The notes beneath the pieces are model-generated. The model made no database searches, was not told where the DNA came from, and saw nothing but the letters and a program-made list of their open reading frames with translations. A stretch of 64,000 bases of DNA from an uncultured Acidobacteriota bacterium (GTDB lineage: Bacteria > Acidobacteriota > Terriglobia > Terriglobales > Acidobacteriaceae), in the NCBI GenBank assembly GCA_903832055.1, contig CAILAC010000013.1:248001-312000 (forward strand), given 5' to 3'. Below, piece by piece: positions 11,763 to 14,276 of this stretch. Every line of letters starts with the position of its first letter. Positions within the stretch are counted from its first letter, which is position 1. A program made the translations under genes and the position numbers.

Positions 11763-11966
11763 ATGAAGAATCTGCTGAAGTATTCCGTTCTCGCTGTGAT
11801 GTTTGTGCTTGGCACAAGCACACTCGCCCATGCGCACGAAGATCGCGACAATGGCGGCAAATGCAATGACAACCAGGCTCCCGAAGTGGATGCCGGTTTC
11901 GCCATGAGCGGCCTCACGCTGCTGGGTGGCACGTTGACCGTACTACGCGCTCGCCGCAAGAAGTAA
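11763..11966 (+). CDS. Mini secreted protein with C-terminal APEVD sorting tail (exosortase substrate 1)
   Basis: A 67-residue protein made almost only of targeting signals: an N-terminal signal peptide (MKNLLKYSVLAVMFVLGT to AHA), a polar stretch of about 20 residues (HEDRDNGGKCNDNQ), then the tail APEVD, a hydrophobic helix (GFAMSGLTLLGGTLTVL) and a basic end RARRKK. The tripartite tail is the layout of PEP-CTERM-like sorting signals, closest to the VPEID-CTERM type handled by exosortase E. After both cleavages only about 19 residues would remain, with one Cys. The ATG follows AAAGGA. The second substrate and the exosortase/protease follow on the same strand. Calling it a substrate is inference from signal and linkage. 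Confidence 0.8.
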   Translation: MKNLLKYSVLAVMFVLGTSTLAHAHEDRDNGGKCNDNQAPEVDAGFAMSGLTLLGGTLTVLRARRKK

Positions 11967-12353
11967 CCATTGTGAGGGAAGGCCGAAGCCGGCCTTTCAA
12001 CACCAGGGCACTTGGATCTTTAGAAACAGCTTTGCTTCAAAGCTGTTTGCGGTAGATTCGGGATGCGGTCGCAAAGAGTGTTTCCAAGACTTGCATCCCT
12101 TTGATTTCTTGATAGCGATCAATCAAAGGCCGATTCCCTGGCCAGATTAAACTGAGCAACTCTCTATGCATCAATCACTTGAGAATCTACTCTTCGCGTA
12201 GTACTGCATATCCCGATTTGGCCAGCAGACACTTTCGCGCAGCGCCTTGGCCCAGAAGAGCCATTTCGAACTGCGTCAGATGACGATACCAATGATGAAA
12301 GACAGGGTGAAACAAAACGCCCGGTCAATCCAACAGCCTTGAAGGACATTGGA
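11967..12353 (+). other. 387-base spacer with two further hairpins between the APEVD genes
   Basis: No gene is supported here. It has an 11-pair perfect inverted repeat at 12024-12048 (AAACAGCTTTG, loop CTT, CAAAGCTGTTT). A second structure at 12098-12129 pairs CCTTTGA with TCAAAGG around an inner TTGAT/ATCAA stem. A structured leader or a promoter for the second gene could lie here; I see no recognisable riboswitch. GAAGGA lies shortly before the ATG at 12354. Confidence 0.45.
11976..12000 (+). terminator. Hairpin after APEVD gene 1
   Basis: AAGGCCG, a 4-base loop AAGC, and CGGCCTT form a 7-pair stem at 11979-11996, 12 bases after the stop, followed by only a short T run. It may be a weak terminator or a processing/stability hairpin that sets a different level for the first small gene than for the downstream genes. 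Confidence 0.5.
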
Positions 12354-12566
12354 ATGAAAGCAACCCTAAGATTTTTCCTCCCAGCGATGGTAGTCGCACT
12401 CACCATGAGCGCAGCAGCCCGCGCAGACAATGGGTTCAACGCTCAACCAGGCAATGTGCCGTCGTGCAACCAGGTTGCTCCTGAAGTTGATCCCAGCATG
12501 GCCGTGGTTGGCGTATCACTGCTTGCTGGATCACTGACAGTTCTGCGCTCGCGGCGTCGTCGGTAG
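12354..12566 (+). CDS. Mini secreted protein with C-terminal APEVD sorting tail (exosortase substrate 2)
   Basis: A 70-residue paralogue of the first mini protein: signal peptide (MKATLRFFLPAMVVALTMSA to ARA), a polar stretch (DNGFNAQPGNVPSCNQV), then APEVD, a hydrophobic helix (SMAVVGVSLLAGSLTVL) and RSRRRR. Both proteins have one Cys followed by Asn a few residues before APEVD. The ATG at 12354 with GAAGGA 7 bases upstream is preferred to the TTG at 12339. The stop is 3 bases before the GTG of the exosortase/protease gene, so they are translationally coupled, which strongly supports an enzyme-substrate pair. Confidence 0.82.
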   Translation: MKATLRFFLPAMVVALTMSAAARADNGFNAQPGNVPSCNQVAPEVDPSMAVVGVSLLAGSLTVLRSRRRR

Positions 12567-12569
12567 CCG

Positions 12570-14276
12570 GTGGCCGTGCTGACCAACTTCCCCAACCGCG
12601 CATCGACCGGGAGCAACCACTCCCCGTCGAGTTTGCGCGCTTTGGCATTCCTCAGCTTTCCCCAGTTCCTGCTGGGACGCATCGGTCTCCTCGCCGGGAT
12701 CCTTGCCCTTGATTGCGTGCTGCTGGCCAGCGTTCCACACACCGCAGCCCTTCTTGGCCCGCTCGCGCCATTTGGCATCGTTTCATTTGCCGTGTTTGTT
12801 GGCCTCGGCTACTCCAGGCTCAAATCTCCGCGTGATCCTCTCGAGTTCAATACCGTCTTCTTTGTCGCGCATCTGGCATCTGTCGCAGCCGTCTTTCTGG
12901 GAATCCTTGCCGCCTGGCACCGATTTGACTTCCTGCAAGGCTCACACGCCTTCCATCTCGCCAGCCGCTTGGTGTTGCTGGCTGGAATCGTACTTCTCGC
13001 CCTCGCCTGCATCCCCTTCAAGACCTGGGTCCGCACCTTCCGGTCCACCCGCCGGCTTTGGCTTTACTCATCGTTGGCGGGTGGGCTGGCCTGGCTCATG
13101 CGCTACCCGCTTCAGTCTTTCTGGGATGCTTCCAGTTCTGCCCTGGGTCGAATTCTTCAAGTTGTGGCGTTCCACTCGGTCAAGTTCGTTCTTCGTTTCT
13201 TTCTACCCAACGTGCTGGTCGATGCCAACAGCTTTAGAATCGGCACACCCAACTTCACTGTCATCATCGCCGAGGCCTGTTCAGGTATGGAGGGTCTAGG
13301 ACTGGTGCTGGTCTTCACCCTCGTCTGGCTCTGGTATTTCCGCAGAGAGAGTCGCTTTCCCCAGGCACTCTTGCTCGTTCCATGCGCCCTCCTCTGCGTC
13401 TGGATGCTCAACATCCTGCGCATCGCTGCACTTGTGCTCATCGGCAACGCTGGCGGTCGCGATGTCGCCATGGTTGGCTTCCACTCTCAGGCCGGCTGGA
13501 TTGCCTTCACCCTCGTCGCCCTCGCCTTTTCGATGGCCACGCGCAAACTCCGCTGGGTGCGCCGGCTTCCCTCCTACTCGGTTGCGACCGTTGCCAGCCA
13601 ATCCCCTCTCCCGCTCGAGTCCACTGCGTCAGAAATCGGCGAGTCCCCGGCGACCGCAGCATACCTCGTTCCCTTCCTGGCGATACTCGGCGCGTCATTT
13701 GTTTCCAAAGCCGCTTCCGGCTATTTTGAATGGCTCTATCCCCTCCGTTTCATCGCAGCAGTCATCGCCCTCTGGCACTATCGTGATGAATACAGGAAGC
13801 TCAACTGGCGCTTTGGTTGGGCTGCTCCCCTGACTGGCGCAGCGACCTTCCTCGTCTGGATCATCCCCTCTTTCTGGTCGCAAAGTTCCTCGACAAGTGC
13901 TCTCGGAAGCACCCTGACCGCCCTCTCTCCTCTAGCACGCTTCACATGGATAGCTTTCCGTGTCCTCGCCGCAGTGGTCACAGTCCCAATGGCCGAAGAA
14001 CTGGCCTTTCGCGGCTACCTTGCACGCCGAGTGATGGGGCGAGAGTTTGAAACGATGTCATTCGCCAGCTTGACAGCCGTTTCTATCGCTGTTTCGTCCA
14101 TAGTCTTCGGTCTGATGCACGGCCATCAATGGATGGTCGGCATTGCAGCCGGAGTGGCTTTTGCCCTGGTTCTACGTTGGAGGGGGCGCATCGGCGACGC
14201 CTTCATTGCACACGCCACCAGCAATCTGCTGCTGGCTGCATGGGTGCTGCTACGCGGGGATTGGGGACAGTGGTAA
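12570..14276 (+). CDS. xrtE: Exosortase E / CPBP protease fusion
   Basis: A 568-residue polytopic inner-membrane protein of two parts. The N-terminal part is an exosortase with the transpeptidase-like triad: C237 in AEACSGMEGLG, R284 in LNILRIAAL and H305 in GFHSQAGW. The C-terminal part is a CPBP/CAAX-type intramembrane protease with E476-E477 in EELAFRG, H517 in FGLMHGH, and H548 with N552 in HATSN. This fused layout is known as exosortase E/protease, linked to VPEID-CTERM substrates. It would cut the APEVD tail of the two upstream mini proteins and perhaps process another precursor. The start is a GTG 3 bases after the substrate stop. A separate promoter is not obvious. Confidence 0.88.
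   Translation: MAVLTNFPNRASTGSNHSPSSLRALAFLSFPQFLLGRIGLLAGILALDCVLLASVPHTAALLGPLAPFGIVSFAVFVGLGYSRLKSPRDPLEFNTVFFVAHLASVAAVFLGILAAWHRFDFLQGSHAFHLASRLVLLAGIVLLALACIPFKTWVRTFRSTRRLWLYSSLAGGLAWLMRYPLQSFWDASSSALGRILQVVAFHSVKFVLRFFLPNVLVDANSFRIGTPNFTVIIAEACSGMEGLGLVLVFTLVWLWYFRRESRFPQALLLVPCALLCVWMLNILRIAALVLIGNAGGRDVAMVGFHSQAGWIAFTLVALAFSMATRKLRWVRRLPSYSVATVASQSPLPLESTASEIGESPATAAYLVPFLAILGASFVSKAASGYFEWLYPLRFIAAVIALWHYRDEYRKLNWRFGWAAPLTGAATFLVWIIPSFWSQSSSTSALGSTLTALSPLARFTWIAFRVLAAVVTVPMAEELAFRGYLARRVMGREFETMSFASLTAVSIAVSSIVFGLMHGHQWMVGIAAGVAFALVLRWRGRIGDAFIAHATSNLLLAAWVLLRGDWGQW

Follow-up and report, generated by a model that had tools for sequence, protein, structure and literature searches.

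A locus pairing an exosortase E/CPBP protease fusion with two nearly cargo-free tailed micro-proteins in an acidobacterial genome

The window, a 64,000-nucleotide stretch of contig CAILAC010000013.1 from an uncultured Acidobacteriota soil bacterium, carries an exosortase E/CPBP protease fusion gene preceded by two genes for very small tailed proteins. The reading favored here, held with about even confidence, is that of a dedicated exosortase E system for which these two micro-proteins are the sole substrates detected in the own genome, processed as proposed below. The unusual feature of the system is the near absence of cargo, not the spelling of the tail. A known enzyme is combined with widespread cargo-poor substrates that are apparently undescribed in the literature searched. 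No description of cargo-poor substrates of exosortase E was found in that literature; curators of TIGR04161 and TIGR04162 may know short VPEID proteins. The features of the locus are as follows.

11763..11966, + strand: mini substrate A, 67 aa, with signal peptide, 15 residues, and APEVD tail (tail profile E 3.1e-15; dN/dS 0.16)
11880..11963, + strand: 28-aa sorting tail of mini A, starting at PEVD, with motif, helix, and basic end (dN/dS 0.03)
11977..11998, + strand: hairpin just after mini A (RNAfold z -2.36)
12354..12566, + strand: mini substrate B, 70 aa, with signal peptide, 18 residues, and APEVD tail (tail profile E 4.9e-13; dN/dS 0.25)
12480..12563, + strand: 28-aa sorting tail of mini B, starting at PEVD (dN/dS 0.11)
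12570..14276, + strand: fusion of exosortase E and CPBP protease, 568 aa if started at GTG (TIGR04162, 192 bits; alternative start CTG 12579)
12604..12629, + strand: stem-loop within the 5' end of the fusion gene as annotated, read by eye, with counterparts in several relatives
12669..13547, + strand: exosortase domain, residues 34 to 326 (C237, R284, H305)
13647..14255, + strand: CPBP (Rce1-like) protease domain with leading helices, residues 360 to 562 (E476, E477, H517, H548; TIGR03008, Pfam PF02517)

The sequence-only reading of this DNA had described an exosortase (C237, R284, H305) and a CPBP protease (E476-E477, H517, H548) fused in a single gene, with two tiny tailed proteins just before it that were nearly all signal, and each of these elements was recovered. 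The ORFs at 11763 to 11966 and 12354 to 12566 were confirmed, both upstream of the fusion gene and both with the layout of signal peptide, 15 to 18 residues, APEVD, helix, and basic end. The 568-aa fusion is a membrane protein and belongs to the exosortase E/protease family TIGR04162, which it matched with 192.2 bits over residues 116 to 565 (curated cut-off, 150 bits). The CAAX-protease-related family TIGR03008 was matched with 114.6 bits against a cut-off of 81, and Pfam identified EpsH and Rce1-like (PF02517) domains. Among 85 distinct fusion sequences, C237, R284, H305, E476, E477, and R481 were invariant, H517 was His in 81 (the others being Q, Q, F, and Y), and H548 was His in all 83 without a gap at the position. 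The Cys-Arg-His that we take to be the defining residues of the exosortase part was thus found in a single chain with the EExxxR, H, and HxxxN of CPBP proteases, the combination expected of TIGR04162. The CPBP residues are those given in PMC11980579. Replacement of H517 was seen in L039 (Acidicapsa dinghuensis; F), L043 (Q), L084 (Y), and L107 (Q), all of which keep C237, R284, H305, E476, E477, and H548; from the substitution, the glutamate protease may be altered in these four. An AlphaFold2 model of the fusion (78 sequences) had a mean pLDDT of 89.1 and a pTM of 0.83, with residues 1 to 27 below 50. A fold search against solved structures returned 96 matches at E ≤ 10, with none at E ≤ 0.001 among the 50 of 96 listed, and a profile search of PDB sequences with the fusion gave no match at E ≤ 1. 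Fusion of an EpsH-like with a CAAX-protease-like domain was already noted in 2006, in four instances (PMC1569441). No experiments on the exosortase E/protease family were found in the literature searched.

The association of tails with the fusion was followed across 85 loci, comprising 80 from a scan of reference genomes (the best of 178 relatives) and five more, including the window's own (L009). Cultured relatives with the cassette include Silvibacterium bohemicum, Terracidiphilus gabretensis, and Acidicapsa dinghuensis. A tailed ORF lay beside the fusion in 73/85 loci, and a small tailed ORF with a start codon, a mini in the narrow sense, in 69/85; 12/85 were without a tailed ORF in the adjoining DNA examined. 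A larger set of 88 loci, 76 of them with tails, contained three duplicates. When the same tail rule was applied to reversed DNA of equal size, 1/85 loci gave a hit, and comparison loci with weak or one-domain matches gave 0/31, these loci being shorter (99 kb in 31 loci). The pairing is therefore firmly more than chance (73/85 versus 1/85), and the conservation of tailed proteins near the fusion in relatives, which had been put forward as the check on the earlier reading, was borne out. Relative to the fusion, 79 of the 101 tailed ORFs were upstream in the same orientation, whereas 16 lay downstream in that orientation and 6 downstream in the opposite one. Because tailed ORFs also occur downstream, some of them on the other strand, the co-location is not merely an operon effect.

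Among 61 genomes, tails were present in 6/6 with a fusion over the cut-off, while the 55 without a fusion yielded one strong tail (G054, E 3.4e-14) and two weak partial matches (E 0.004 to 0.008). G054, which has no fusion over the cut-off, carries the strong-tailed mini L132 (G054:C32:21508-21597) and, on contigs other than that of L132, separate weak exosortase-like and CPBP-like matches. G011 carried a single strong tail, along with a weak partial match on a contig other than that of its fusion. In a wider sample of the phylum, own genome included, the fusion was over the cut-off in 3/396 genomes and is thus uncommon. Apart from the minis, clustering of neighboring ORFs with an overlap filter gave no recurrent family in more than 7/85 loci. 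A gene that, from how its sequence reads, is presumably of the sterol-desaturase/fatty-acid-hydroxylase kind adjoins the fusion in 7/85 loci (L062, L067, L068, L076, L079, L111, and L113), and a family of large surface-like proteins adjoins it in 7 planctomycete loci (L083, L092, L095, L097, L099, L104, and L106). At L079/L006, L059, and G458:C249, similar cargo-poor minis occur four to six in a row, either around a single fusion or sharing a contig.

The cassette is flanked directly by threonine dehydratase and thioesterase genes on its upstream side and by a recQ-like helicase gene on its downstream side. The own genome and four others of the same genus (G001, G002, G004, and G011) have the cassette between the thioesterase and recQ genes, which are there spaced 2.4 to 3.7 kb apart. 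In G010, of the same genus and 88% complete, the two genes are 348 bp apart with no fusion and no tail between them, and in G006 other DNA occupies the site and no fusion was found over the cut-off. Within the genus, the cassette thus comes or goes as one unit.

The proposal that APEVD marks the locus off from VPEID systems was not supported. The motif among the 101 tailed ORFs was APEID in 32, VPEID in 21, APEVD in 8, and TPEID in 8, besides others; APEID, VPEID, and APEVD intermix, and in some fusion genomes this tail also occurs on larger proteins. APEVD as a separate motif class was rejected since it grades into APEID and VPEID, and, judged from the sequences, it is a variant spelling of the VPEID tail already known. 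The minis display the features of VPEID-CTERM proteins (signal peptide, PE[IV]D, helix, basic end, and adjacency to exosortase E) and share the tail architecture of the exosortase E/protease, VPEID-CTERM system (TIGR04162 with TIGR04161), namely PE[IVLM]D, helix, and basic end, but they differ from VPEID-CTERM in being almost without cargo. By score, the window minis fall outside TIGR04161 (cut-off, 33 bits), with no match at E ≤ 1 and, across the own genome, nothing at E ≤ 0.1. Over 55 fusion genomes, the same model matched 36 at E ≤ 0.1 and was over its cut-off in 3, and 7/20 minis matched it at E ≤ 10, the best at 2.5e-5. The PEP-CTERM model TIGR02595 (Pro-Glu-Pro) likewise leaves the minis outside, with no match to those of the window at E ≤ 1 and one of 20 minis matched at E 3.2. 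No family was over its cut-off for the window minis, the best being weak LPXTG-anchor matches to the tail shape. With a tail profile built from 43 rows, mini A and mini B were the sole tails in their own genome, the next best match having E 1.3; two further GCNCCNGARGTNGAY matches there were rejected as not being tails. A Cys-Asn shortly before the motif is common to both window minis and both minis of the nearest relative, L035 (= L010), and the minis tabulated for nine other loci of the window's clade have no Cys at that position.

The PEP-CTERM/EpsH system (PMC1569441) also combines a tripartite tail with a cysteine exosortase, but its genomes have a median of eight and up to 65 tailed proteins of high diversity, whereas here there are two nearly empty ones. 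For the myxosortases MrtX and MrtJ (PMC11980579), a tripartite tail is cut by a CPBP glutamic protease; the CPBP domain here is fused to an exosortase, and the invariant Cys of the MYXO-CTERM motif has no equivalent in the window tails, which contain no Cys from PEVD on. Rhombosortase/GlyGly-CTERM genomes with a single target mostly have enzyme and target adjacent (16/21; PMC3237569), but the enzyme in question is a rhomboid, unrelated to the fusion described here.

Calculated against L035, whole-gene dN/dS was 0.13 for the fusion, 0.16 for mini A, and 0.25 for mini B. Both minis are under purifying selection and therefore look like real genes. When computed by part, dN/dS was 0.03 and 0.11 for the tails of mini A and mini B and 0.82 and 1.1 for the mature stretches, the latter comprising 15 and 18 codons only. 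Selection keeps the tail strongly, and the mature stretch is near neutral.

The scarcity of cargo extended well beyond the window. After six tailed ORFs from L086, L101, L103, and L105 that were cut, large, or without a clear start had been set aside from the 101, 95 minis remained, with a median length of 56 to 57 aa (95 minis, or 93 without the window's two) and a range of 45 to 102. The signal cleavage site was placed by a crude -3/-1 rule in our own script rather than by a trained predictor, and by this rule the median distance from the site to the P of the motif was 6 residues (95 minis), with 10 residues or fewer between site and motif in 66/95. When grouped by tree, Bryobacterales-type and planctomycete minis mostly keep 0 to 10 residues (exceptions, 11 to 47), those of the window's 11-row clade 7 to 50, often proline- or charge-rich, and those of gammaproteobacterial bins 15 to 48. 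Of the 80 loci, 50 led to 49 fusion genomes, of which 47 had between one and eight tails each at E ≤ 1e-5, 97 in total; the two genomes without a profile match have divergent tails recognized by pattern (L111 and L113). Short proteins carried 88/97 tails (86 on frames of ≤160 aa and two, of 175 and 184 aa, counted as short from their start codons), and nine tails were on frames of 218 to 391 aa, in six of the 47 tail-bearing genomes. The fusion family is thus able to take large cargo and mostly has none. The mature stretch of the minis is drifting and often of low complexity, which a spacer would explain no worse than an active peptide would.

The arrangement of the two active sites was judged from the charges of the loops. 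Averaged over 78 sequences, K+R per loop was 2.0, 0.4, 1.7, 0.6, and 2.1 before the long loop and 2.7, 0.3, 2.2, 0.1, 3.2, 0.7, 3.2, 0.1, 2.6, and 0.3 beyond it, so that high and low values alternate over most of the chain. Residues 186 to 239 around C237 (K/R 3.3, D/E 3.4) and the linker 327 to 359 (K/R 2.2, D/E 2.3) were ambiguous as to sidedness by charge, and H517 lies within a turn placed by the charges mid-membrane or outside. We infer that C237 sits where its helix ends on the outer side and that E476, E477, and H548 lie in the inner half of the membrane. These loop charges, read on a predicted model without the use of coordinates, suggest that C237 and E476/E477 face opposite sides of the membrane. 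If this topology is right, the two sites would meet opposite ends of the tail, with the motif outside and the basic end inside, and a second cut by the CPBP domain becomes plausible.

Exosortase E may turn such minis into very short exported peptides instead of anchoring ordinary surface proteins. In the proposed scheme, a mini would be exported by Sec, its leader would be removed by signal peptidase, and the remainder would be held in the membrane by the tail. C237, on the periplasmic face, would then cut at PEVD or close to it by way of an acyl-enzyme. The short peptide, about 20 residues long here and in many relatives about 5 to 12, would pass to water or else to a lipid, an envelope glycan, or a similar acceptor. 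Subsequently the CPBP domain, with its glutamates seemingly in the cytoplasmic leaflet, would cut the left-over tail helix. What results would be a small exported peptide with a processed C terminus. In its full form, a two-cut micro-peptide factory that works on both membrane faces and turns a precursor of leader and sorting tail into a peptide of 5 to 25 residues with a modified C terminus (for example, lipopeptide or glycan-linked) in Acidobacteriota, Planctomycetota, and Gammaproteobacteria (by metagenome bin names), the proposal is tentative and rather doubtful. Were it true, the system would be a widespread maker of peptides and not only a sorter of surface proteins. The exosortase acceptor has been described as "some new moiety" and is unsettled as far as the available text of PMC11980579 goes. 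A nearly cargo-free cassette is a good test bed for what exosortases attach their substrates to, as the whole product, including any C-terminal group, may be short enough for mass spectrometry; the role of the fused protease is also made directly testable.

Several other explanations bear on the same observations. The minis could be small envelope proteins anchored in the ordinary way, the mature stretch serving only as a linker or to bind some other component of the envelope, as might be suggested by the frames of 218 to 391 aa that end in the same tail in other fusion genomes and by the 7 to 50 residues, often rich in proline or charge, kept in the window's clade. The 66/95 minis with 10 residues or fewer, however, have too few for a folded part, and the tails, up to eight per genome, are mostly on short frames, so that anchoring seems unlikely, if still to be reckoned with. 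That selection retains the tail rather than the mature stretch, and that the mini gene adjoins the enzyme gene, would also be consistent with a regulatory or assembly partner, that is, a pseudo-substrate occupying the exosortase or keeping it folded while the real substrates lie elsewhere. The own genome, however, has no other tail above the match at E 1.3, and 41 of the 47 tail-bearing genomes have no larger tailed frame at E ≤ 1e-5; we regard a partner role as improbable.

Decay of a sorting system after the loss of its cargo genes would account for the empty substrates, and H517 was lost in 4/85 sequences, including that of Acidicapsa dinghuensis (L039). Against such a relic stand the dN/dS of 0.13 for the enzyme and 0.03 to 0.11 for the tails, the retention of the other active-site residues in all 85 sequences where aligned, and the tandem copies, which make it very improbable indeed.

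If the minis are processed to short peptides as proposed, the peptide would perhaps be in excess over a weakly translated enzyme, a weak start keeping the latter scarce. In L035, the fusion frame has no ATG, GTG, or TTG for 136 codons. A [C/T]TG in line with CTG 12579 was aligned in 9/9 close sequences (window, L035, L008, L007, L036, L037, L038, L116, and L040; window positions 12567 to 12582), the alignment being by position with the frame of L038 left aside; usable standard starts also occur further on in L116, L036, and L040. From this alignment, the fusion may start at an unusual CTG (TTG in some relatives); TTG 12633 is a further candidate start in the window. The 3-base coupling of mini B to the fusion in the sequence-only reading accordingly depends on the start chosen: it stands if GTG 12570 is used and gives way to a gap of 12 bases if CTG 12579 is used. 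Mini B and the fusion share a frame in both the window and L035. The nearest upstream tailed ORFs showed a mild excess in the fusion frame (27/55, with 18 and 10 in the other two). Readthrough of the mini B stop codon into the fusion was put aside as less probable, since 28/55 of these ORFs lie in a different frame and the junction is accounted for by a CTG/TTG start.

Hairpins were scored with RNAfold against mononucleotide shuffles. Windows after tailed ORFs had a mean z of -1.81, with z < -2 in 40/99, compared with a mean of -0.13 and 2/85 for windows inside the enzyme gene; the excess is weak evidence for a surplus of substrate, because ordinary terminators give the same. The hairpin at 11977 to 11998 was absent from the results of a consensus terminator scan. 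For the 65 nt after mini B, the gain over shuffles was only slight in the window (z -1.09) and larger in L035 (z -2.81); in the window, mini B is not clearly followed by a hairpin. At the fusion junction of several close relatives, the arms of the stem-loop seem, by eye, to co-vary.
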